A DNA stretch of 64,000 nucleotides from NCBI RefSeq assembly GCF_900107765.1, contig NZ_FNQY01000004.1, positions 1 through 64,000 on the forward strand, in the 5' to 3' direction. Of this stretch, positions 9,643 through 21,814 are shown piece after piece (position 1 is the first letter of the stretch; each line of letters starts with the position of its first letter). The notes below the pieces were generated by a model, which saw only the letters and a program-made list of their open reading frames with translations, was not told the origin of the DNA and searched no databases. The stretch is from Arachidicoccus rhizosphaerae. Its GTDB lineage: Bacteria > Bacteroidota > Bacteroidia > Chitinophagales > Chitinophagaceae. A program made the translations under genes and the position numbers.

Positions 9643-10772
9643 TGGGCAATAGTCTAAAAACGATCACGTCCATTACTTTGTTGGGGTGTATCTGGATTGG
9701 CTCGCTATCAGTCAGTTCATTTACGAACAGTCGGGATACTATTGTAAATAATATCCCGACTCCCCATATAATCACCCTGCGATTCCCGGCCTATTTCGGG
9801 CACCATTATCAAATCCCGGAGGATAACCCGACTACTGAAGAAGGCATAGCGCTCGGCAGAATGCTCTTTTATGAAAAACAGCTATCCAAAAACAATCAAA
9901 TATCCTGCGCATCCTGTCACCAGCAGGAACATGCCTTTAGTGACACCGCGGCATTTAGTCTGGGGGCAGACGGCTCTGCCCAACCGCGTAATACAATGGC
10001 ACTTGTCAATTTACTATGGGTCAACCAGTTTTTCTGGGACGGCAGAGCAAAAGGGCTTGAAGCACAAGCGGACACCCCACTTGTCAACCTGCATGAGATG
10101 AATCAATCTTTTGACCAGTCCATTGCTAAACTGGAACACAGGCAATTATATAAAAATGCATTCAAGGTCGCCTTTGGAGACGAAAAGATTACTAAAAGCA
10201 GAATTGAAAAGGCGCTGGCGCAATTTGAGAGAACACTTATTTCCTGTAATTCCAGGTATGATCAATATCTTGAGGGGATTTACCAACCAACGGCTGCGGA
10301 ACTGGAAGGCATCGCCTTATTTTACGGCACCCCCACCAGCAAAACTTATCTGAGAAGGCCCAGCTGCAGTCATTGTCATGGCGGCCCCAACACCTATGAA
10401 GAATTATTTATGAATAACGGGTTAGACAGTCTTCCAAAGGATTTAGGCAGGGCTATTATCACAGGCCAGGACTATGACAAAGGCAGATTCAGGGTAGTAA
10501 CCTTACGCAACATAGCCCTTACTGCACCCTATATGCATGACGGACGGTTTAAAAGCCTGGCCGAGGTTATTGACCATTATAGTGATCACATTCTTTCAAG
10601 TTCTTCCTTAAGCCCCTTTCTGAACAGCAAAGAAATAGTGAGTAACCCTAAAGATCACCTGAGTTTCACCAAGGGTGAAAGAACTTCCCTTATCGCTTTT
10701 TTAAACATGCTAACGGATTCAAGTTTTATTCAGGATAAAAGATTTTCCGACCCATTTACATCTAATAAATAA
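9642..10772 (+). CDS. Di-haem cytochrome c peroxidase, MauG/MbnH-like
   Basis: A 376-residue exported protein with a signal sequence at about residues 1-28. It has two covalent haem sites, CASCH at residues 89-93 and CSHCH at 242-246. Between them are hallmark family segments: LGRMLFYE, AFSD, WDGRAKGLEAQ and NLHEMNQS. Near the C-terminus are RVVTLRNIALTAPYMHDGRF and EVIDHY. Classical members reduce H2O2 in the periplasm; MauG and MbnH relatives instead oxidise residues in partner proteins. The WDGRA...LE.QA...EM pattern favours the latter branch, but I see no MbnP partner. The start codon overlaps the stop of the upstream TonB receptor gene. Confidence 0.9.
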   Translation: MGNSLKTITSITLLGCIWIGSLSVSSFTNSRDTIVNNIPTPHIITLRFPAYFGHHYQIPEDNPTTEEGIALGRMLFYEKQLSKNNQISCASCHQQEHAFSDTAAFSLGADGSAQPRNTMALVNLLWVNQFFWDGRAKGLEAQADTPLVNLHEMNQSFDQSIAKLEHRQLYKNAFKVAFGDEKITKSRIEKALAQFERTLISCNSRYDQYLEGIYQPTAAELEGIALFYGTPTSKTYLRRPSCSHCHGGPNTYEELFMNNGLDSLPKDLGRAIITGQDYDKGRFRVVTLRNIALTAPYMHDGRFKSLAEVIDHYSDHILSSSSLSPFLNSKEIVSNPKDHLSFTKGERTSLIAFLNMLTDSSFIQDKRFSDPFTSNK

Positions 10773-10812
10773 ATTGTAGTTTAGTTGGTTCAACAATCAA
10801 AAACAAAAAACA

Positions 10813-11349
10813 ATGAAAATCCAAAAAATACTTTTAGTCAAAGCCCTTGTACTTTTTTTATTTTTCCCCTTCCAGTCGGCTAAGACTCAGGTACACACGG
10901 TTTTAAACAGTGACTCATCCCAATCTGCAGTATTACGAATATCCGGAGAAGTGACCTCCCCGCTAACGCTAACACTCTCATCATTAAAATCCTTGCCAGA
11001 ACATACCGTTACGGTGAAGGATAAAACAGGGTCTCCCCATCAGTATACTGGAATATACGTTACAGATGTACTAGCCAAAGCAGGTGTTACAACAGGTCAT
11101 GAACTTCGTGGGGAAAACCTAAGCAAATATGTACTGGCCAGTTGTGCAGATGGTTATCAGGTAGTCTATTCTCTGGCTGAGCTTGACAGCAGTTTTGTCA
11201 AAAATCTGCCCATTATTGCTTATGAAATTGACGGACAACCCTTAATGTAAAATAAGGGACCATTGCGTATGGTGATGCCTGAAGATAAAAAGCCGGCCAG
11301 AAGCTGCTTTCAACTTCAATCGCTGAGTGTTCATTTTGCCCAGAACTAA
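10813..11349 (+). pseudogene. Exported molybdopterin-fold protein with in-frame stop
   Basis: The start at 10813 gives a signal peptide followed by a sulfite-oxidase-like molybdopterin-binding domain: LRISGEVTSPLTLTLSSLKSLP, QYTGIYVTDVLAKAGV, ADGYQVVYSLAEL and IAYEIDGQPLM. A TAA at 11248-11250 stops translation at residue 145. The same frame continues with NKGPLRMVMPEDKKPARS and ends at a natural TAA at 11347-11349. That G-P-L-R-x-V-x-P segment is the conserved end of the domain, so the full gene would encode 178 residues. One base change explains the break. It follows the peroxidase gene by 40 bp. It is either a recent pseudogene, a readthrough case or a sequencing error. Confidence 0.8.
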
Positions 11350-11428
11350 GCTAAAATTTATGCTGATTAATCCGCCATAGCGACAATGGCAAATCCAATG
11401 AATGCTATTTAGAAATTCAACAGCATAA

Positions 11429-11457
11429 GCAAGGCGGCAATGAATATGCCGCCTTGC
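11429..11457. terminator. Bidirectional terminator between convergent genes
   Basis: The 11-bp arms GCAAGGCGGCA (11429-11439) and TGCCGCCTTGC (11447-11457) pair perfectly around a 7-nt loop. The hairpin lies between the plus-strand molybdopterin-fold gene and the minus-strand multicopper oxidase operon. Confidence 0.75.
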
Positions 11458-11507
11458 AATATATAAAAAGAAAAAAATCAATACTAAGTAACCGGATTGC
11501 CATCCAG

Positions 11508-14093
11508 CTAATAGGTTAACGTAATGCCTGCACCCCAGCCCATATCACTATCATAGTGCGTTGATAAAGAGAATAATTTAGTCAATATATATTTACCCCC
11601 AAAAGAATATTCCCTATCAGAATTCACCATAAAATTAGCCCGCAGCCTGGGCGTAAGCGGGATATCCTCCCTACTTAACTGCATTCTGACATAACCGTTA
11701 TGATCAACACTTGCATCAGCCACAACTAACCAGGGCAAAGTATATTGGATCCCAACATGAAAGACCTTACGATCATCCTTGGTGTTTGTCTGACCAAACA
11801 GACTCTTCTCTTCATACTTATGCCGCCTATGCCGCCAATCGATGCCTACATAAGGAAAGAGCCACTGCATGGATCCTAAATACCTGCCAAAGTGGGTTTC
11901 CACCTCGTATCCATCCTTATTATTATATCCTAACCGCCATTCCCCCTGAAACGCCCAGCGCGTATTGGCATATACCAGGCTTCCGTCATTACCGTTTGTC
12001 GCAAAATCATTTTCAGCCTTTAAATGAAACATGCGGTCATCCATTTTAAGCATTTTATATCCCATATCCGGATGTGGCATTTCAGGATTATGCGGACTAT
12101 CCTGATAGGTAAAGATCCGTCCCATCCCACTCATCATGTGATAAAGTATATGGCAATGAAAAAACCAATCTCCGCTTTCAGATGCGTTAAATTCAAGCGT
12201 ATCGGTCTCCATAGGCATAATATCAACCACATTTTTCATGGGAGAACTATCTGCATACTGATTAACCAATCTAAAATCATGTCCATGCAAATGCATGGGA
12301 TGACGCATCATAGAATTATTATAAAGAACAATCCTCAGGTTTTCGCCTTTTTTAATCAAGATCTTATCTGTTTCAGAAACCGTCTTATTATTAATCGTCC
12401 AGACATACCGGTTCATGTTGCCTGTCAGCTCAAAATTCAGTGTCCGCCAGAGTCCGTCAGGCAGCGTTGTCTTGTGGGTAGCCTCCAGCATATTATAATT
12501 TAAGGTTACAGGAGCATGGCTTTCCATATTCGCGACTTCAGCTACCCTGTCCTTTTCTGCTGTCTTATGCCCTGACAGGTGACTCATTGAAGCATCTTTG
12601 CCCTCAGATTTCACCAGCTCTAATTCCATTCCGCATTTAGGGCATTTACCGGGCTTATCTTGTCTGATATCTGGATGCATCGGGCAAGTATACCACTTGC
12701 CATGATTCATATTTTGTTCCATAGAGGTAGAATCTGGCATAGCCATATCTCTATCCTGTTCGGAGGCGCCATCTAACTCCGGATACATCACGCTATTCAT
12801 ATCCATAGTCTGTAAGGACATTGCCATCCCCATATCATCCATCTTGCCACTGGTTTTCATCATGTCATTCATCATGGCCATGCCAGCAAAATACTTTAAC
12901 TTGCCAGGAGGTCTTGCGGCAAGCTGCGGTCCATCTCCCAACCACAAGGAGGCGCTTCCTGTCCTGTCTTCCGCAGTGGCTAGAAATTCAAAGGAATTAT
13001 TACCCGATATGGAGACCACCAGATCGTAGGTTTCGGAAGGCCCTATAATCATATTATCTACCATCACCGGTTTAACATCATTTCCATCACTGGCCACAAC
13101 CATTAATTGGCTACCACTATATTTTAGCCAAAAATAAGTAGACGCGGAACCATTCACTACCCTTAAGCGGACCTTATCTCCAGGCTTTAGCCCTTTCACT
13201 TTACTGGAGTCATGTCCATTCAATAAAAACCTCTCATAATAGACATCGCTCACATCCATCGCCTTCATTCGCTTCCATTCATTGAGTAATTTTACGCCAA
13301 CCTTACCTGCTGCAATTGCCTCACTATAACTCTGTACTGCTTTCTTTTTAATGGAAAACCAATCCGAGGCCGTGTGCAGTCTTCTGTCAATCTCCTCCGG
13401 CTTCATATTACTCCAGTCACTAAGTACTACAGGAATGGTCGGAATTTCCGGTTCCGTTCTCTTATTAAAAATCAAAGCTCCATACAATCCAACCTGTTCC
13501 TGCAATGCATAATGGCTATGATACCAATAAGTACCTGCCTGCACCACCGGAAATTTATAAATATAAGTTGTATGTGGCGCAATCGGATGCTGGGTAAGAT
13601 AAGCAACGCCATCCATTCTGTTGGCCAGTTGTACGCCATGCCAATGTACGGCTGTTGGCTCATCTGAATTATTATGCACATAAATCAGAGCCGTGTCGCC
13701 AATAGTAAAAACCAGTGTCGGGGCAGGTAACTGTCCATTGACGGCAATTGCTCTTTTGCTTTTACCATCAAAACCCACCGTTGAATCCGTTATAAACAAG
13801 TCATAACGCACAGTTTTCGCCTTTATTTCCCCCGGAGCGAAGTGAATACCCGCTCCTGCAGCTTCGACAGGTTTTGTGGCAATATCCTTTTCCATATTCG
13901 AAAGCACGCCCAAAGGAGGTTCCTGTCCAGGCAGTGTAGGATGCGCTACCGGCACTGCAAAGGAGGCAAATGGCGTAAACCGGTCATTATTTCCATGATC
14001 AAATTTTGGTTTTTCCTGAGCCGCGGCGGGCTGCAAATAAAATAACAACAGCCCCAGCAAAAGACCAGGTAAATACCTACTAAATATATTCAT
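11508..14093 (-). CDS. Multicopper oxidase with metal-binding insert and C-terminal beta-barrel
   Basis: An 861-residue exported protein with signal peptide at 1-25. Cupredoxin domains carry the copper ligands HWHG (150-153), WYHSH (190-194), HPMHLHGHDF (598-607) and HCHILYHMMSGM (646-657), matching CopA/PcoA-type Cu(I) oxidases. A Met-rich stretch at about 405-455 precedes a heavy-metal-binding domain, YTCPMHPDIRQDKPGKCPKC at about 468-487. After the last cupredoxin, residues about 690-861 form repeated amphipathic beta-strands resembling a CopB-type outer-membrane barrel. Periplasmic Cu(I) oxidation and copper sequestration are the expected roles. The barrel would tether the enzyme to the outer membrane. 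It is the last gene of the copper operon. Confidence 0.92.
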   Translation of the reverse strand: MNIFSRYLPGLLLGLLLFYLQPAAAQEKPKFDHGNNDRFTPFASFAVPVAHPTLPGQEPPLGVLSNMEKDIATKPVEAAGAGIHFAPGEIKAKTVRYDLFITDSTVGFDGKSKRAIAVNGQLPAPTLVFTIGDTALIYVHNNSDEPTAVHWHGVQLANRMDGVAYLTQHPIAPHTTYIYKFPVVQAGTYWYHSHYALQEQVGLYGALIFNKRTEPEIPTIPVVLSDWSNMKPEEIDRRLHTASDWFSIKKKAVQSYSEAIAAGKVGVKLLNEWKRMKAMDVSDVYYERFLLNGHDSSKVKGLKPGDKVRLRVVNGSASTYFWLKYSGSQLMVVASDGNDVKPVMVDNMIIGPSETYDLVVSISGNNSFEFLATAEDRTGSASLWLGDGPQLAARPPGKLKYFAGMAMMNDMMKTSGKMDDMGMAMSLQTMDMNSVMYPELDGASEQDRDMAMPDSTSMEQNMNHGKWYTCPMHPDIRQDKPGKCPKCGMELELVKSEGKDASMSHLSGHKTAEKDRVAEVANMESHAPVTLNYNMLEATHKTTLPDGLWRTLNFELTGNMNRYVWTINNKTVSETDKILIKKGENLRIVLYNNSMMRHPMHLHGHDFRLVNQYADSSPMKNVVDIMPMETDTLEFNASESGDWFFHCHILYHMMSGMGRIFTYQDSPHNPEMPHPDMGYKMLKMDDRMFHLKAENDFATNGNDGSLVYANTRWAFQGEWRLGYNNKDGYEVETHFGRYLGSMQWLFPYVGIDWRHRRHKYEEKSLFGQTNTKDDRKVFHVGIQYTLPWLVVADASVDHNGYVRMQLSREDIPLTPRLRANFMVNSDREYSFGGKYILTKLFSLSTHYDSDMGWGAGITLTY

Positions 14094-14425
14094 CAGATTT
14101 TTTTAATATACTTTCAATGCATATCCTGAAAGATTGACTGTCACGCTGATAATATGCCCTAACGATCAAACTTCAAAAGTCCTCCGAAATGGCATAAAAC
14201 TACATCAGGAAAGTTTCCATCCCAATAGTGGCGTTGGTCAGCAGCATTACCCACTTAGCTCCTGATTGCATTGAATGACCTTTGCATAGAAAAGCTAATA
14301 AGTAAGTGCCTACTACAAATTATTCCACTTAGCTCCACGTGTCGCTTCCATCAGGACATGCTTTGTCCTTTAATAATTGAAATTAATTATTTTACCTTTT
14401 ATTCGTAAAATTTATGGTATAAGTA
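14094..14425. other. Spacer inside the copper operon
   Basis: About 330 bp separate the DUF3347 gene from the multicopper oxidase gene, long for an operon. It contains a direct repeat CACTTAGCTCC at 14252-14262 and 14326-14336, 74 bp apart, which could be regulator sites for an internal promoter. I see no gene and no clear -7 element. Confidence 0.4.
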
Positions 14426-14950
14426 TTAAGGCTCAAGTGTTTCTTTTACAGAACCACAATTCAGCATGGTTTTACCATAATAAGGATTTTCAATCTCCTT
14501 TTTATCACTTAACCAATTGGCTTTTGCCATGGGACAATAATCCCAGTATAGCGTGGTAGTGGTACCGGAGGTTTTCAGCAAAGCATACAAATGCGTGCTT
14601 AAATCCTTAAAACTTGTTCGCTGTGCTGTAATATCCGTCGCATTGCCGATAGCTACAGCTTTATTCAGTGCTTCTTTGCCATCCTTTGCAAATACTTTTT
14701 TGTCTAACTGCTTTTCCCAGGAAGTGAGCGCTGTTGCCAGCCGCTTTCCAGCCTCAGCGGCCTGACTTTTCTGTCCTGCGACTAAAGCATCCTTAAGGGA
14801 TAAATAGGCCTTAACAACCGAATTAGCATCCAAAGTTGCATTTGTGTAAGTATAATGAGTAGAGAAATAGGAATTAGCGGCTCCGGGAGGGGTCGCCATT
14901 GCGAGAGAGGTTATGGAGATGAATCCAAACGCTAATAATATCTTTTTCAT
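14426..14950 (-). CDS. DUF3347 exported protein, probable copper binder
   Basis: A 174-residue protein with signal peptide at 1-19. The body is helical (residues about 35-125: VVKAYLSLKDALVAG and similar). It ends with the diagnostic DUF3347 motif: LYWDYCPMA, W-L-S-D, NPYYGKTMLNCG. The Cys and Met residues of this tail are candidate metal ligands. DUF3347 occurs C-terminal to, or beside, CusB-type copper efflux proteins and in copper clusters of Bacteroidota. Here it lies between a Cys/His-rich protein gene and the multicopper oxidase gene, all on one strand. A periplasmic copper-chaperone role is inferred. Confidence 0.85.
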   Translation of the reverse strand: MKKILLAFGFISITSLAMATPPGAANSYFSTHYTYTNATLDANSVVKAYLSLKDALVAGQKSQAAEAGKRLATALTSWEKQLDKKVFAKDGKEALNKAVAIGNATDITAQRTSFKDLSTHLYALLKTSGTTTTLYWDYCPMAKANWLSDKKEIENPYYGKTMLNCGSVKETLEP

Positions 14951-14970
14951 ATTTATTGATTTTATAAAAG

Positions 14971-15450
14971 TTAAAATAGAATTTTCAGTTCTGCCATTGA
15001 GCCTGTGAGGCTCAATGGCAGAACTGAAAATTCTATTTTAGGGGGTCGCCATATAAAATCAAAACCTTTGGGTAATCTTATCGGAATAAAAAAAGATGGC
15101 ACGACTTTCTCCGCCTGGTCCATTTGTAATATGGTGCTCATTGCAGGCAAAAAAACGCTCGTGATACCGTTCCCTGTACAATGACAATTGTGGCCACAGG
15201 CATCACCTGCTGAATGATCACATGGAAGGCTACCCTTTTCAGCTTCCTGGGCCATCTGACAGCCCTGATGTATCGTCGTTGCTGATTTTGTTTTTTGTAG
15301 AGCTGTTCTTCCATTTGAAGCAGGTTTGGCATCATTATGACAACAGCTATGTCCTTGCATGCCAGTGCAGGCCATCAGCTGACCAGGAAGAGCAAAAAGC
15401 CCCAGCAAACAAATGCATAAAATAAATAATATCAATCCCTGTTGCTTCAA
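14971..15450 (-). CDS. Small Cys/His-rich exported protein of the copper operon
   Basis: A 159-residue protein with an N-terminal hydrophobic segment (about residues 6-27) ending LMAC. The region at about 28-95 is rich in Cys and His: CTGMQGHSCCH, HQGCQMAQ, CDHSAGDACGHNCHC. It probably binds Cu or Zn. A second hydrophobic stretch (SVFLPAMSTIL) follows. The C-terminus is encoded by a perfect inverted repeat: one arm gives KIEFSVLPLS and the other GSMAELKILF plus the stop. The last ten residues may thus be a by-product of the palindrome. It is the first gene of the operon, only 20 bp before the DUF3347 gene. No named family recognised. Confidence 0.7.
   Translation of the reverse strand: MKQQGLILFILCICLLGLFALPGQLMACTGMQGHSCCHNDAKPASNGRTALQKTKSATTIHQGCQMAQEAEKGSLPCDHSAGDACGHNCHCTGNGITSVFLPAMSTILQMDQAEKVVPSFFIPIRLPKGFDFIWRPPKIEFSVLPLSLTGSMAELKILF
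14972..15040. repeat. Perfect 32-bp inverted repeat with 5-nt loop
   Basis: Arm 14972-15003 is the exact reverse complement of arm 15009-15040; the loop is TGTGA. All 32 pairs match. It covers the last 23 codons and most of the stop codon of the Cys/His-rich gene. No long T-run follows on the minus strand, so it is not a standard terminator, though its RNA would be very stable. Confidence 0.97.
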
Positions 15451-15471
15451 AACAATTGATTTTTACCTGTC

Positions 15472-15479
15472 AAAGGTAA
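15472..15479 (-). promoter_or_regulatory. -7 element of the copper operon
   Basis: The minus strand reads TACCTTTG, a TAnnTTTG match, 22 bp upstream of the first gene of the copper operon. Confidence 0.55.
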
Positions 15480-15657
15480 AATATTTACATGGTTAGGTTC
15501 TTATAAAATTTCATATAAACCTTACAAAATTGCAGCCGATTTTCAGCAAATCAAACGATTGCATGAATCGCAAACGTTAAAGATTCTTTATCAATTTAAT
15601 CCATTCAAAGACAGTAGTTTTGGAGTTTTACTTATACATAATAACTATTTAATATAC

Positions 15658-18063
15658 ATGTCGCTTTTCATAAGACTAATTTGCACTTTTCTGATAATCG
15701 CCGGATTCAATCAAGTCCTTTCAGCCCAAGTGGTTTTACAGGGTCGAATAACAGATCCGAAACAAGCGGCATTAACAGATGCAACCGTTCAAATAAAACT
15801 AATTGAAGACACCACCGTTAAAGCAGGTCAAAACAGCCAAAATGGAGCGTTTAAATTTAACGGGCTCCAAAAAGGGCTATATATTATTGAAGCCAGCAAA
15901 ACCGGATACAATACTACTAAGATTTATATCAGACTAGACCAGGATTCAAGTATTCAACTACAATTACAACCCTATACTCAGGAACTGGAACAGGTTACGG
16001 TTACCGGAAAAAAGAAGCTGATTGAACAAAAACCAGACAGAATCATCTATAATGTCTCCGGTAGTGTAACCAGCCAGGGTGGTAATGCGCTTACGGCTCT
16101 TTCCAAAATCCCGGGCGTAAAAATCAGTGGTACTACCATAGGTCTGGCCGGGAAGGGAAGCGTTAAGATAATGGTAAACAATAAGTTACTTGAAATAAGT
16201 GATCAGAACCTGGCTAATTATTTAACAACCCTCCCCACCAAGGATATTGATAAAATAGAGGCTATTACCAGCCCCGGAGCCAACTTTGATGCCGCTGGCG
16301 GTGCAGGTATTATCCGCATTGTCACTAAAACTGCCAACCTGGAAGGCTGGAGCGGGTCCGTTCAAGGAACTTATGGTCAACAAAACACTTATGACAATTA
16401 CACACTGAACGGCTCCGTCAATTATAAAAAGGACAGATGGAACGGGTTTGCCAGTGTTAATCTGAACCGCCATAAAGAGCTCATGGGCTGGATCATTGGT
16501 GTTCAATACCCTACATATAACTGGTCCTTGAATGACACTGGCATTTATAGGATAGATGACTACAATGGTACAGTAGGGCTGGGCTACCAAATCGGGAAAC
16601 AAAGTCAGCTTCAAATTAGTTATCATTTTGGCTACAGGGAGGAAGGACACAATCTGGATGGCCATGACGATGTCAAAAACTATATTACAGATAAAGAGGG
16701 GAATATAGATTCAGTCATCAGAAGCTATGCCACCTATAATCCTATTGCCAAAACAAATGCCGTCAATTTGCATTATAATACAGTTTTAGACAGCAAAGGC
16801 ACAACGCTTAGTGCTGATGCAGATTATTTTAACTTCTTTAGAACTGACTATTCCAATTTCAGGGGATATGCCCAACCTGCCTTGCAACAGGATGGCGATC
16901 AAAATGCGCTGTTTTCTAATACGGCCAAACAAAACATACTGATTTACACCGCTAAAGCAGACCTGAGCATTCCTACGCCGTTTGCTACCTGGATGCTTGG
17001 CGCTAAATTCAGTGATATCAGCATATATAGCGACGCGCTTTATTATAATATTGCTACCGGAACACCTGCTTTTGATTCCAGTAAAAGCAATATTTATGAT
17101 TACTCGGAAAAAACACAGGCTGCTTATATCCAGGGATCTAAGAAATGGGCAGATTTCAGCCTCAATGCGGGGCTAAGGGCTGAGTATACGAAAACCACCG
17201 GGCATTCCATTTCACTGTTAAGAACAGATAAAAATAGTTATTTTAAATTTTATCCTTCCGTTTCATTCACTTATCAGGCAAATGAGCCCAATCAATTTTA
17301 TCTGGAATTCAATAAAAGGATCAACCGTCCCACTTTCTGGAACCTGAACCCTTACCGGTCTTTATTAACAGCTTATGCCTATTACGATGGCAATCCGGCG
17401 CTGAAGCCAGAATATACAAGTCAGCTGGAAATTGGACATAGTTATAAACAGCAACTTTATACCTCTTTATATTATCGCCATACCACCAATAGTTTTGACT
17501 ACCTAACAGTTGGATCGCTGGATACATTTTTAGTATACAGAACACCCATGAACTTTATCAATAGCTCCACCTGGGGAATACAGGAGCGTATAAATTTAAC
17601 TCCGGTCAGATGGTGGGACGCCGCTTTACAGTTTAATCTTTATTATACCAAAAGCAAATCAGATCTTGATTATGTAGCTGATCAGAAAGGATGGGGCCAA
17701 TATGTATCTATCGGCAATACATTTTATTTTGATAAACAGAAAAATTTCAGCGGAGCTGTTAATTTCTGGTGCCAGTTTCCGGAAGTTGATCATATAGGAA
17801 CCACAAACACCTATAATTCACTGGACCTGGGGCTTATGTATACCACACTGAATAAAAAATGGACTTTAGGACTCAATGCGACGGATATTTTTAAAAACAG
17901 CTGCCCTACCTATTATACCGAAGTCAATGGCCTGAAACAAAGCTATGAACATTTCCAACTGAACAGATCCGTTGTATTTTCGGTCTCCTACCAGTTTGGA
18001 TCTCGTCCGAAGGCTGGTAATGACAGAGCTACCGGTAATGAGGAAGAAAGGAGCAGACTTTAA
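15658..18063 (+). CDS. Outer-membrane beta-barrel protein with carboxypeptidase-like domain
   Basis: An 801-residue outer-membrane protein. The ATG at 15658 is chosen because it begins a signal peptide (MSLFIRLICTFLIIAG to LSAQ); the open frame extends 33 codons further upstream. Residues about 20-110 form a CarboxypepD_reg-like domain (VLQGRITDPKQAALTDATVQ). A plug-like region follows (QKPDRIIYNVSG, LTALSKIPGVKISG, IDKIEAITSPGANFDAAG-AGIIRIVTK). The rest is a large barrel of the OMP_b-brl_3 type. Such proteins resemble TonB receptors, but their ligands are mostly unknown. It is divergent from the copper operon, so a shared metal role is possible but unproven. Confidence 0.85.
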   Translation: MSLFIRLICTFLIIAGFNQVLSAQVVLQGRITDPKQAALTDATVQIKLIEDTTVKAGQNSQNGAFKFNGLQKGLYIIEASKTGYNTTKIYIRLDQDSSIQLQLQPYTQELEQVTVTGKKKLIEQKPDRIIYNVSGSVTSQGGNALTALSKIPGVKISGTTIGLAGKGSVKIMVNNKLLEISDQNLANYLTTLPTKDIDKIEAITSPGANFDAAGGAGIIRIVTKTANLEGWSGSVQGTYGQQNTYDNYTLNGSVNYKKDRWNGFASVNLNRHKELMGWIIGVQYPTYNWSLNDTGIYRIDDYNGTVGLGYQIGKQSQLQISYHFGYREEGHNLDGHDDVKNYITDKEGNIDSVIRSYATYNPIAKTNAVNLHYNTVLDSKGTTLSADADYFNFFRTDYSNFRGYAQPALQQDGDQNALFSNTAKQNILIYTAKADLSIPTPFATWMLGAKFSDISIYSDALYYNIATGTPAFDSSKSNIYDYSEKTQAAYIQGSKKWADFSLNAGLRAEYTKTTGHSISLLRTDKNSYFKFYPSVSFTYQANEPNQFYLEFNKRINRPTFWNLNPYRSLLTAYAYYDGNPALKPEYTSQLEIGHSYKQQLYTSLYYRHTTNSFDYLTVGSLDTFLVYRTPMNFINSSTWGIQERINLTPVRWWDAALQFNLYYTKSKSDLDYVADQKGWGQYVSIGNTFYFDKQKNFSGAVNFWCQFPEVDHIGTTNTYNSLDLGLMYTTLNKKWTLGLNATDIFKNSCPTYYTEVNGLKQSYEHFQLNRSVVFSVSYQFGSRPKAGNDRATGNEEERSRL

Positions 18064-18284
18064 TAACCTGAGCCAAATCGTTATACCATATTTGATACCT
18101 TTTACATGCAAAGAAGAATTAATCCATAAAAGGATATTGATAAAATGCATTAAATAAGAAAATTCTAACCTGCTTCTCAATTTCCAAATAAGGAGGCATT
18201 TCCCTACGTCCGGCTTCTTTGTATCTGTCCAAGACAGTAATTATGCCCAATAATTAAATTATTGACAATTAGTTATACTAATGC

Positions 18285-18292
18285 TATATTTG
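18285..18292 (+). promoter_or_regulatory. -7 element of the lipoprotein/TPR pair
   Basis: TATATTTG at 18285-18292 matches TAnnTTTG, with TTGACA 17 bp upstream (18262-18267). It places transcription start just before ATG 18328 and argues against the longer frame starting at 18262. Confidence 0.55.
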
Positions 18293-18327
18293 ATACAGGC
18301 AAAACTACATCATCAGATCCAGTCGTA

Positions 18328-19392
18328 ATGAAACAGGCAACCCGATATAGATGGAAGACCTTATTTTTAGCGGTACTGACTTCGCTGCTGCTGCTGCTGC
18401 TGCCTGGCTGCCATAAACATCCATCTCAAAATATCAAAAAAGCTTTTTATTACTGGAAAACCAATTTTCATTTGACCGCTTATGAACAAAGCAGGCTCAG
18501 TAGCCTTAATGCCCAAGGTCTCTATGTACGTTTTTTTGACATCATCTGGGATACACAGACTAACGAACCAAAACCTGTTGCTGTCAGCAACATCAACAAG
18601 GACAGACCCGGAAATTATCACTACACACCTGTCCTCTTTATTACACAAGAGGTATTAAGCAAGATAAATGATGCGGACCTCCGGGATTTCGTAAAGAATT
18701 TCACAAATCTGCTCTATGAAAAATGTATCCAGTCCGATATAAACCCCACAGAAATACAAATTGATTGCGACTGGACGCGAAGCACAAAACAGAAATACTT
18801 TAAGATTTTGGCACTATGCAAAACACAATCCTTTTTCAAAGACAAACAACTCAGTTGTACCATCAGGCTGCATCAAATTCGTTATCCGCAGATCAGCGGG
18901 ATTCCTCCTGTTGACAAAGGATTACTCATGTGTTATAATATGGGGAATTTAAAACTGCCAGGCAATAATAATTCCATCCTGGATTTACAGGTCACCCGAA
19001 AATATCTAATCCATTTAAAGGACTATCCGCTTAATTTAGATATTGCTTTTCCTATTTTTAGCTGGTCACTTTTATACGACGACAAAAATAGGTTCACAGC
19101 AATAGTCCGGGATCTGACACAGACTGATCTCAGAGACAGCAGTATTTTCGAACCCATCGGACAACACCTGTACAGAATCAAAGTGGACACATTGTGGCAC
19201 GGTTATCCTCTTAAAAACACATCTATCATCCGCCATGAATCCTGCAGTCCGGATCAGTTATATCAGTTAGCGCAACTAATACAAGGAAAAACGCACCATA
19301 CAACCACGCTTATTTTTTATCACCTGGATAGTTTAACACTCACTAAATACACCAACAATGAACTGGAGAAAATTTACAATACTGTCCTTTAG
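18328..19392 (+). CDS. Lipoprotein with TIM-barrel-like fold, unknown function
   Basis: A 354-residue protein from ATG 18328. The signal peptide ends in a lipobox LLPGC, so it is a predicted lipoprotein. The hydrophobic core contains six consecutive CTG leucine codons (18385-18402). The body alternates strands and helices in a TIM-barrel manner: GLYVRFFDIIWD, VLFITQEVLS, PTEIQIDCDW, LSCTIRLHQIRYP, IPPVDKGLLMCYNMGNL and LDIAFPIFSWSLLY. The E-I-Q-I-D-x-D-W strand and the CYNMG strand look like glycosidase-type active-site ends, but I cannot name a family with confidence. It overlaps the next gene by 35 bp, and the pair recurs in Bacteroidota as far as I recall. Confidence 0.75.
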   Translation: MKQATRYRWKTLFLAVLTSLLLLLLPGCHKHPSQNIKKAFYYWKTNFHLTAYEQSRLSSLNAQGLYVRFFDIIWDTQTNEPKPVAVSNINKDRPGNYHYTPVLFITQEVLSKINDADLRDFVKNFTNLLYEKCIQSDINPTEIQIDCDWTRSTKQKYFKILALCKTQSFFKDKQLSCTIRLHQIRYPQISGIPPVDKGLLMCYNMGNLKLPGNNNSILDLQVTRKYLIHLKDYPLNLDIAFPIFSWSLLYDDKNRFTAIVRDLTQTDLRDSSIFEPIGQHLYRIKVDTLWHGYPLKNTSIIRHESCSPDQLYQLAQLIQGKTHHTTTLIFYHLDSLTLTKYTNNELEKIYNTVL

Positions 19393-21814
19393 TATTATCG
19401 GGGCTATACTGGTTGCGAAACTTACTTATAGTTGTATTCCCGAAGCCATATACTATAACTACCCCTCATTTTTTGGTAATAAAGCGCCCGAACAGGTAGC
19501 CTACAGGCCTTTCTTTTACGTTTCTGAAGACCCGTATTACAATAATTATGATGATCAACAGCAAAATAATGATGATTTGCTTAATTTGGATAACCTCAAA
19601 GAATGGCAGGATTATACCCATCAGACCTGTTCTCTTATAGATCTGGACAGCCTGATAAATAAATACCCGGTACAAACATTAAGGGATATTTCGACCGGGA
19701 ACTTGAATCACCTGACTGTCCGGCAAAGGCAAAATACATTTTCCCAGTGGCTATTCAATAACAATAAAAGGGATGCACTGCAATATTTAATTTTTGCCAA
19801 GGATTGTGAGCCCTTTGTAACCACCAAGAATTATTGGGATACCCTGACCGTAAATATTGATTCCTCAGAAATCCTTATTAAGGACGGAATAAATAAGTGG
19901 AATAACACAAAGGATTCATTTTTAAAATCAAGATATGCCTTCCAGATTCTCCGACTCGCTTTCTATAATAAAAAATATGACCGTACGCTAAAACTATATG
20001 ACAGCCTGATAGGCAATGCTTCATCCAATTCCAGAACTTTGTCGGATTACCGAAGTCTCGGCCTCAAAGCAGGCGTATACTTCAGAAGGAACAATTACCC
20101 GCAAGCGGCCTATTTATACTCAAAATTATTTACCGGGCCGGACGGAGTTAAACAGACGGCCATGTTGTCCTTTTTATGGAGCATCCGCCATGAGCAGCCT
20201 AAAAACAGCAAAACTGTTCTACAGTCAGCGTACGAATTATGCAGTGATGACCATGAGCGGGCCGTGATGACTATCATGCAAGCGCTCAGAGAAACGGACA
20301 AAGCCCTCCCACTCATAAAAAAAGCATATGCTTTAGATCCAGCGATTAAAGGCCTGGATGTCATTTTCAACAGGGAAATCAATAAAATGGAAGAGCGCTA
20401 CCTGACCTATAATATTGATCAGTCCAATAAAATTGAGTACTTAAGCTATTTTGAATACTTTGAGGGTCAGCCGGCAGCAATGCAGGCGTATTTATCAGAT
20501 TCAGTTAGAAAAACCTATCCAGGATACCTCGGACAATTAAATGCATTTTCACAAAAAATGATTAAAGATCAAAAATCAGGTTCACCGGCATTCTGGCATT
20601 TATCCTCTGCGTATATCAGTTATATGCTGGATGATGTAGAGCAGATGTCCAGGGAAATGTCGCTCGCCAAATCATCTGGTATGAATAATGAAGAAAGTCA
20701 GTTATTTCAGGTATTTGAAATCCTGAAGATTATTAAAAATCAAGACATTATCACCTCGGAAACAGAAACCCTGCTTTTACCGCAATTAAAAAAACTGGAT
20801 ATGCTGGCTGACAGTAACTCAGATAGGAATCAAAACTTCTATTCTGTCATGAATTTGCTTTTGGCACCCAAATATCTGGCACAAAAAGATACGATTAAGG
20901 CTTTATATTGTATGGCCCACAGCCGAAGAGAAAACACCACCAGCCACGGTTATTCTTATATTAATTTCTTTGACTTCAAATCCGTTCCATCAAAATATCG
21001 TGTGGATGTGTCACTGACCGACCGCCCGGGCCAGTTATTGGATAAAATGGATATAATCTCCTTACATAAAATCCAGTCCTATTTAGACAACAGTAATCAT
21101 TCCCCCTTTGATAAATGGCTCGTCAATAACACCTATTACAATGAAAGCACCCTAAAGGAATTAGAAGGCACTAAATATCTGCGCGCATTTGATTTTAAGT
21201 CAGCTGCAGCTATTTTAAAAAACGTTCCTCACCTGGACAGTCTGTCCTATCCCTTTGAGATGCATATTCTTGACATCACGGACACTATTTACCACCAGGA
21301 TACCAGTATCATCACCACTAAATATAGCTTTGCAAAAGAAATGGCAGCCCTGCAGCAGGCCATAGCTTCAGACTCCAACAATACACTAGCACTCTATAAA
21401 TATGCCTTAGGGCTATATGCCATGTCCTATTATGGCAGAGCTCCCCACCTATTCATTTATTATCATAGCACTTCAGACGAATATAAATATTATAAAACTA
21501 CGCAAAGAGACCAGCTGCCAAATGTCTTTCAGGAATATTATGGACTTTATACCGCTGAGAAATATTTCAATCTGGCAGCAAAGGCTGCCAAGACGGCTAC
21601 CTTAAAAGCAAAATGCATCTTCGGCGCCGCTAAATGCTGGCAGAAAAGATGTGCCGATATGGACGAAAAGGATTATGAAGATCTAAATTACTTTGCCTAT
21701 AGTTTAACGAACCCCTATTTTAAAACACTCAGCACTCAATACAGTAGTAGCGAGTTTACCAAAGCGCTCTACAATACCTGCAGTTATTATAGAGACTACC
21801 TTAAAAAAAATTAA
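19358..21814 (+). CDS. Large exported TPR-like protein, unknown function
   Basis: An 818-residue protein whose N-terminus has a hydrophobic segment (LSFSIIGAILVAKL) followed by a Cys in LTYSCIPE, so it is exported or lipid-anchored. Next comes an aromatic stretch (IYYNYPSFF, PFFYVSEDPYYNNYD) that I recall from paired Bacteroidota proteins of unknown function. The remainder is mainly helical and resembles degenerate TPR repeats (YDRTLKLYDSLIG, NYPQAAYLYSKLF, AAKCWQKRCADM). It overlaps the lipoprotein gene by 35 bp in another frame, so the two are translationally coupled and probably act together at the envelope. No catalytic motif seen. Confidence 0.75.
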   Translation: MNWRKFTILSFSIIGAILVAKLTYSCIPEAIYYNYPSFFGNKAPEQVAYRPFFYVSEDPYYNNYDDQQQNNDDLLNLDNLKEWQDYTHQTCSLIDLDSLINKYPVQTLRDISTGNLNHLTVRQRQNTFSQWLFNNNKRDALQYLIFAKDCEPFVTTKNYWDTLTVNIDSSEILIKDGINKWNNTKDSFLKSRYAFQILRLAFYNKKYDRTLKLYDSLIGNASSNSRTLSDYRSLGLKAGVYFRRNNYPQAAYLYSKLFTGPDGVKQTAMLSFLWSIRHEQPKNSKTVLQSAYELCSDDHERAVMTIMQALRETDKALPLIKKAYALDPAIKGLDVIFNREINKMEERYLTYNIDQSNKIEYLSYFEYFEGQPAAMQAYLSDSVRKTYPGYLGQLNAFSQKMIKDQKSGSPAFWHLSSAYISYMLDDVEQMSREMSLAKSSGMNNEESQLFQVFEILKIIKNQDIITSETETLLLPQLKKLDMLADSNSDRNQNFYSVMNLLLAPKYLAQKDTIKALYCMAHSRRENTTSHGYSYINFFDFKSVPSKYRVDVSLTDRPGQLLDKMDIISLHKIQSYLDNSNHSPFDKWLVNNTYYNESTLKELEGTKYLRAFDFKSAAAILKNVPHLDSLSYPFEMHILDITDTIYHQDTSIITTKYSFAKEMAALQQAIASDSNNTLALYKYALGLYAMSYYGRAPHLFIYYHSTSDEYKYYKTTQRDQLPNVFQEYYGLYTAEKYFNLAAKAAKTATLKAKCIFGAAKCWQKRCADMDEKDYEDLNYFAYSLTNPYFKTLSTQYSSSEFTKALYNTCSYYRDYLKKN

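Follow-up and report, generated by a model that had tools for sequence, protein, structure and literature searches.

What is a perfect palindrome doing inside the end of the first gene of a presumed copper operon, and is it new there or old? The question is raised by a locus of Arachidicoccus rhizosphaerae lying within a 64,000-nt stretch of contig NZ_FNQY01000004.1 (the window), where a small Cys/His-rich protein, here called the leader, is encoded on the minus strand (15450-14971) ahead of genes for a DUF3347 protein (14950-14426) and a multicopper oxidase (14093-11508). At a probability that we put near one half, sequence comparison points to an older regulatory stem-loop, set between the gene for a CutF-like copper-sensing leader and the DUF3347 copper gene that follows it, of which the palindrome would be a perfected version. 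The genes concerned and the repeat itself are as follows.

14971-15450, minus strand: Cys/His-rich leader protein of 159 aa, TTG start as listed, related to HYC_CC_PP/CutF-like leaders
14951-14970, minus strand: 20-nt spacer between the leader's stop and the DUF3347 start at 14950, the presumed initiation region of the DUF3347 gene
14426-14950, minus strand: DUF3347 protein of 174 aa (PF11827, E 7.7e-17)
11508-14093, minus strand: multicopper oxidase with an HMBD domain (PF07732, PF07731, PF00394, PF19335)
14972-15040: perfect inverted repeat, arms 14972-15004 and 15008-15040, loop 15005-15007

The arms of the inverted repeat are identical at all 33 positions and enclose a loop of 3 nt; a sequence-only reading had described the same object as a 32-bp palindrome with a 5-nt loop. 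A 111-nt stretch containing it folds at -57.8 kcal/mol on the minus strand and -58.0 kcal/mol on the plus strand, with z-scores against 200 shuffles of -14.4 and -13.3, respectively. It is the longest perfect inverted repeat in the contig (254,200 bases, loops of 0 to 20 nt), the next longest at the same loop sizes measuring 22, 19, 18, 17, and 16 bp, and five first-order Markov sequences of the contig's size contained none longer than 12 bp. The 22-, 19-, and 18-bp repeats lie at G000:C5:100859-100915, 97276-97331, and 128443-128490, and the 22-bp repeat at least has AT-rich ends and resembles a bidirectional terminator. The palindrome is single copy, since a 105-nt query found no second match in the genome at an E value of ≤0.001, and a 20-nt core of the arm had no other genomic match with up to three mismatches allowed. 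No match to Rfam 15 reached its gathering score in 20 relative loci. In the window at 14000 to 16000, Rfam 15 gave ten matches at an E value of ≤1, none of which reached its gathering score; these comprised VR-RNA and nine microRNA or TAR models, the kind of match that any long hairpin gives.

The leader contains a cysteine cluster and a C-terminal proline motif, the latter adjoining the stem, and ends in residues that the palindrome itself encodes.

15178-15198, minus strand: codons C85-C91 (CGHNCHC), presumed metal site with putative metal binding
15040-15048, minus strand: codons R135-P136-P137, conserved in orthologues, a candidate site of ribosome pausing by analogy with CruR and CutF
14974-15033, minus strand: new C-terminal tail E140-F159, palindrome encoded and absent from both orthologues

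The open reading frame from 15450 to 14971 passes through both arms and stops at 14973-14971, which bears out the earlier suggestion that the arms encode the last codons and stop of this protein. Its translation has a visibly hydrophobic N terminus. The cysteine cluster reads C85-xxx-C89-x-C91, and 43 residues separate C91 from the residue preceding PP. The corresponding distance in five leaders of the genus is 43, 43, 43, 42, and 41 residues; it is held at 41 to 43 although two orthologues share only 45 and 32% identity with the window protein. A TTG start is listed for the leader open reading frame in all three orthologues (15448-15450 in the window, L004, and L005); the start is taken as given in the open reading frame calls, and a weak TTG start would suit a leader gene.

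A search of the genus's other five genomes showed an orthologous leader with a DUF3347 gene behind it in two of them (G004 and G002), with similarity to the oxidase following. Comparison of the C termini showed that the window's tail is not shared: the G004 protein ends ...FDFIWRPPKIG and the G002 protein ...FDFIWRPPKIGNKLIG. The sequence-only reading had proposed that the final ten codons arose de novo; the tail is indeed new relative to the orthologues but comprises 20 residues after K-I, not ten. The stop codon has come to lie at the distal end of the 3' arm in the window; in G004 it overlaps the basal 5' strand where that strand ends. The same reading had also taken the hairpin as such to be new, and this is not supported, as its base is common to both orthologues and has been kept through compensatory changes.

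15030-15040, minus strand: 5' strand (in the mRNA) of the conserved 11-bp hairpin base, beginning at the third base of the last proline codon
14972-14982, minus strand: 3' strand of the conserved 11-bp hairpin base

The 11 basal pairs form directly after the R-P-P codons in the window and in both orthologous loci (L004 and L005). Three of them are changed on both sides (C-G/U-A, G-C/A-U, and U-A/A-U), the first being a silent change of CCC to CCT in the last proline codon that is matched on the far arm. At the same place as the window palindrome, the G004 and G002 spacers carry inverted repeats of their own, CAAAATAGGAT...ATCCTATTTTG and CAAAATAGGAAA...TTTCCTATTTTG. On the DUF3347 side, DNA similarity to G002 begins at the start of that gene and takes in the outermost 8 nt of the 3' arm; on the leader side it likewise reaches the outermost 8 nt of the 5' arm. 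For G004, a hit was obtained on the 5' side only, reaching into 11 nt of the arm. As read from these alignments, the hairpin base is old and only the interior is new in the window.

The distance from the last proline codon through the ATG is 95 nt in the window and 91 and 112 nt in the orthologues, so that nothing was added to the window spacer. This agrees with an imperfect palindrome having been corrected by template switching, which the sequence-only reading had put forward alongside inverted duplication and which best explains why a perfect interior lies between older ends. Template switching is known to create or maintain RNA hairpins (PMC8794818) and has likewise been reported for proteins (PMC8604942); in the available sections of both sources, as is proposed here, perfect stems arise from imperfect inverted repeats. 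The window hairpin differs in lying within the coding frame of a presumed regulatory leader and in extending the protein, and the locus looks like one in which a single template switch altered a regulatory hairpin and a protein end together.

The kept spacer length argues against two other origins. A fold-back assembly error, raised in the sequence-only reading as an alternative, would be conceivable in a draft genome in 54 contigs, but we consider it quite improbable: the palindrome has unique flanks on both sides and sits 15 kb inside its contig, its spacer length lies between those of the two orthologues, and its basal helix is present in two other genomes. Insertion of a palindromic mobile element of the MITE or REP type would account for a fully palindromic sequence with TA ends; it is the least probable of the explanations, as the sequence is single copy in the genome, its best match in the genus's five other genomes has an E value of 0.13, viral contigs contain no exact match to 19 nt of the arm, plasmids contain no match, the spacer is not lengthened, and the base is common to the orthologues. 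A repeated element of the genus was separately considered and rejected: the pattern CAAAATAGGA N30-60 TCCTATTTTG occurs at one place only, the G004 junction (one of six genomes), the interior of the G002 copy being longer than the pattern allows.

To place the junction among its relatives, 294 genomes of the family were searched; the leader alignment matched 12 and the DUF3347 alignment 243. Thirty DUF3347 loci and L012 were read. Another 60 stretches were then retrieved, of which 59 lay upstream of DUF3347 matches in the list, the exception, L151, being from the wrong side. The leaders were sorted by C terminus into type A (W-R/L-PPKI, which includes the window), type B (PP..DIRIAIQSFQI), and type C (PP...CIFRI and the like); the groups were partly hand-picked, and the types and arm windows were defined after the spacers had been inspected. 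Loci with no clear DUF3347 start at a usable distance (e.g., L006, L026, L029, L030, L033, and L035, and likewise L037, L116, L136, L145, and L147) and near-duplicates (L011, L069, L070, L079, L080, and L081) were left out of the arm tests.

Type B spacers are mostly 70 to 80 nt long and fold as an outer stem with an apical hairpin. All 16 type B junctions at which the leader stop codon could be placed have it within or beyond the first pair of the 5' strand of the stem; the 17th, L060, has no such stem. In 15 of the 17, the outermost predicted pair ends 2 to 7 nt before the next AUG, and in L129, where the helix is weak, it reaches into the AUG. Almost all paired positions that lie at or inward of the seventh nucleotide after the start of the stop codon show several pair types. 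In the window group the stem ends 20 to 21 nt before the AUG, so that the start may not be covered there.

Pairing between the two arms was assessed by an arm-swap test, in which each 5' arm was paired with its own 3' arm and with those of other junctions. At type B junctions (n = 17), own arms paired at -16.0 kcal/mol and swapped arms at -12.2 kcal/mol, and none of 10,000 permutations was as low (P < 0.0001). The same-genus type A junctions gave a P value of 0.007 with the window included (n = 6) and ranked 5th of 120 without it (n = 5); the orthologous trio ranked only 2nd of 6 because G004 and G002 share arms. All type A junctions without the window (n = 11) gave a P value of 0.0002, those outside the genus (n = 6) a P value of 0.099, and type C junctions (n = 13) P values of 0.0013 and 0.0008. 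At the order level, where 30 loci with HYC_CC_PP leaders were reduced to 27 by the loss of L158, L169, and L172, which have no usable spacer, none of 20,000 permutations was as low. The pooled 68 junctions are not fully independent, since some order-level loci repeat type C places (L171 is L123).

Stems with z-scores below -2 were found at 13 of 17 type B junctions, compared with 7 of 87 control spacers, which were other same-strand spacers in the loci retrieved; an initial control of 96 spacers had contained 15 such stems, with type B junctions among them, and a stricter filter reduced it to the 87. Without the window, the same-genus type A junctions all passed this threshold (5/5), as did 6 of the 11 type A junctions overall. 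The proportion was 3 of 13 for type C (Fisher 0.12 versus controls, not significant) and 8 of 27 for order-level HYC_CC_PP junctions (Fisher 0.0075). None of 19 control spacers in the window's own contig fell below -1.68. Taken together, the swap and z-score tests indicate that the stop-to-start stem is a strong feature of type B and of this genus, and that it is weaker or missing at the other junctions. With MAFFT alignments as input, RNAalifold gave no consensus pairs for type B and ten for type A, none of them changed on both sides.

Such a junction resembles those of two known copper-sensing leaders, which are cited here from the available sections of their sources; the sequence-only reading had not noticed this CutF-like context. 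CutF of Rhodobacter capsulatus is a small cysteine-containing protein encoded upstream of copper genes that include a multicopper oxidase; it is exported while being translated, and copper at its CxxxC motif together with a C-terminal proline motif is held to slow the ribosome, which thereby opens a stem-loop covering the start of the next gene and controls that gene (PMC9973294). CruR of Bordetella pertussis, the product of the first gene of a copper operon, arrests with two proline codons in the P and A sites (PMC12992588) and acts through Rho-dependent termination (PMC9426467). In both, 45 residues separate the cysteine site from the proline motif (PMC9973294, PMC9426467). The window leader shares with CutF the position upstream of copper genes, the proline motif near the C terminus at a similar distance (43 residues) from the putative metal site, and a stem-loop in the spacer, as at cutF-cutO; with CruR it shares the place at the head of the operon, a cysteine motif, and a C-terminal motif like R-x-P-P. 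It differs from CutF, a DUF2946 protein with CxxxC whose stem-loop hides a Shine-Dalgarno sequence, in having no DUF2946 match and in its CxxxCxC and R-P-P motifs. Its next gene encodes DUF3347, with the oxidase only after that, and its stem is perfect and translated throughout; type B junctions differ from CutF in having their stop codon in the stem. CruR differs in having CXXC and RAPP motifs, a 162-nt spacer, Rho-dependent termination, and expression that copper lowers (PMC9426467, PMC12992588).

The filters given for CutF-like proteins in the available part of PMC9973294 are a length of ≤150 aa, a PP within the last 15 residues, a next same-strand gene within ≤1,000 nt, and a Sec signal peptide. 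At 159 aa and 157 aa, the window and G002 leaders exceed the length limit, and the G004 leader (147 aa) does not. The window leader has 22 residues after PP, beyond the limit because the palindrome's tail follows PP, compared with 3 in G004 and 8 in G002. Its DUF3347 gene is on the same strand 20 nt away, and its CxxxC lies 43 residues from the proline motif, near the ~45 residues looked for; the G004 leader is within the limits for length, PP, and cysteines. RAPP is not found near the C terminus of the window leader, which has R-P-P without the alanine. Among seven leaders including the window's, Pfam gave no significant match and none to PF11162 (DUF2946/CruR) at an E value of ≤1, and NF047658 (HYC_CC_PP, cut-off 28 bits) gave none at an E value of ≤1 for the window, L004, L005, L008, or L010. 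Given the length, the PP position, and the lack of a DUF2946 or NF047658 match, the window leader is proposed to work like CutF and is not assigned to these families.

Relatives match the NCBIfam models to varying degrees: L113 scores 45.5 bits with NF047658, L041 scores 26.1 bits, just below the cut-off, and L004 comes near CopL_fam (NF033807) but under its cut-off. The window protein matches neither HYC_CC_PP nor CopL_fam, and nothing else in NCBIfam, at an E value of ≤1. In L041, a type B leader, the last cysteine and the last PP are 56 residues apart, not 43.

We propose that the ribosome making the leader probably controls the making of the next copper protein through the hairpin, as judged from the arrangement of motifs and stems. 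The leader would be exported while being made, and copper at the cysteine cluster, ~43 residues before PP, would alter the length of the ribosome's pause at R-P-P, during which P136 and P137 would occupy the P and A sites. A ribosome covers roughly ten nucleotides downstream of its P- and A-site codons. The paused ribosome would thus cover approximately the ten nucleotides with which the 5' arm begins, open the base, and expose the DUF3347 start. That the conserved 11-bp base is approximately the part a paused ribosome would open is our main reason for preferring a CutF-like switch. The old imperfect stem would have helped the template switch that made the interior perfect. In the window, pausing would still lead to opening of the base, with 22 further pairs left in place, and a ribosome reading on would have to melt all of the pairs and would end 20 nt before the DUF3347 start; a frame through the whole hairpin may mean either tighter coupling or a damaged switch. 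Control of expression between the leader and DUF3347 by an mRNA hairpin, as the sequence-only reading had suggested, is likely. Among the relatives, hairpins recur at junctions of this kind.

Another possibility is an ordinary intercistronic stem-loop that shields the mRNA or guides its trimming, with a perfect interior that is a neutral accident and no copper-dependent control. The structures described here are static, and 7 of the 87 other spacers also have z-scores below -2; however, such a stem-loop would leave aside the placing of the stop codon in the stem at 16 of 16 type B junctions, the start of the stem directly at RPP in the window trio, and the Cys-PP spacing held at 41 to 43, and we regard it as unlikely.

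The main rival to the proposed switch is a transcription attenuator, that is, an intrinsic and possibly bidirectional terminator after the leader, whose formation would be decided by whether the ribosome pauses at RPP or reads on. Six of the 20 terminator-like sites in 10000 to 20000 are this hairpin, the region's strongest, perfect AT-flanked hairpins occur elsewhere in the contig, many type B spacers have a U-rich, TGTAATTATTTT-like stretch after the apical hairpin, and CruR offers a precedent in its Rho-dependent termination (PMC9426467, available sections). On the other hand, the run of T residues behind the window stem is interrupted (AAAATTCTATTTTAAC), and an intrinsic terminator would have no use for the outer 3' arm with which the type B stem closes near the next AUG, which leaves attenuation a doubtful alternative, with perhaps more to recommend it than the ordinary stem-loop.

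More tentatively, the kin of HYC_CC_PP might form a broad class of copper-sensing leaders, each with its own stop codon in a stem folding over the copper gene behind it, and such a ribosome-operated switch would have been rewired in this genome when a template switch made the hairpin perfect and carried the leader's frame through it. HYC_CC_PP was found in 97 of 149 order-sample genomes, with 87 over the cut-off, and in 11 of the 27 HYC_CC_PP junctions read the next protein starts like what we take to be an RND efflux pump. If the proposed control operates, the sensing of copper by nascent chains, as in Rhodobacter CutF and Bordetella CruR, would probably extend to copper operons of the Bacteroidota, and the stem-loop geometry of these junctions is directly testable. 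CutF-like proteins with their spacer lengths are already listed for Bacteroidota in the available part of PMC9973294, and that of a 2025 paper reports finding no RAPP/RGPP leaders of copper genes in this phylum (PMC12992588). A ribosome-operated geometry with the stop codon in the stem is not described in the literature searched, nor, in main texts, is a stem-loop at the leader-DUF3347 junction; the search returned nothing on HYC_CC_PP and, judged by title, nothing related on DUF3347.

Several spacers contain recurring hairpins of their own. A near-identical 18-nt hairpin motif, GACAGCCATAGGTNTGTC, has 14 sites in the 294 genomes (in 6 genomes), 7 of which lie 11 nt after a leader stop (L068, L069, L070, L072, L079, L080, and L081, at locus position 1501 on the matching strand); the other 7 are elsewhere, and a reversed control pattern had 3 sites. 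It is possibly an RNA motif in its own right. A GCCGACACT...AGTGTATCGGC hairpin follows the leader stop in four order-sample loci (L173, L177, L178, and L179), and a GAGCC...GGGCT hairpin, then TTGGCATTT...ATGCC, is present in L168, L181, and several type C spacers.

Downstream in the window, a further resemblance of the DUF3347 protein is to the NCBIfam LIC13259/LIC11441 family, with which it scores 50.2 bits where the cut-off is 100. The 332-nt gap between the DUF3347 and oxidase genes (14094-14425) contains no minus-strand open reading frame of ≥60 aa and has the 12-mer GGAGCTAAGTGG twice, near 14336-14325 and 14262-14251. A second copper segment of this genome with a leader and DUF3347 (L010, G000:C13:21125-24331) is 99.1% identical over 3.2 kb to L011 (G002:C1:1546307-1549513) in another species of the genus, a degree of identity that suggests recent transfer.
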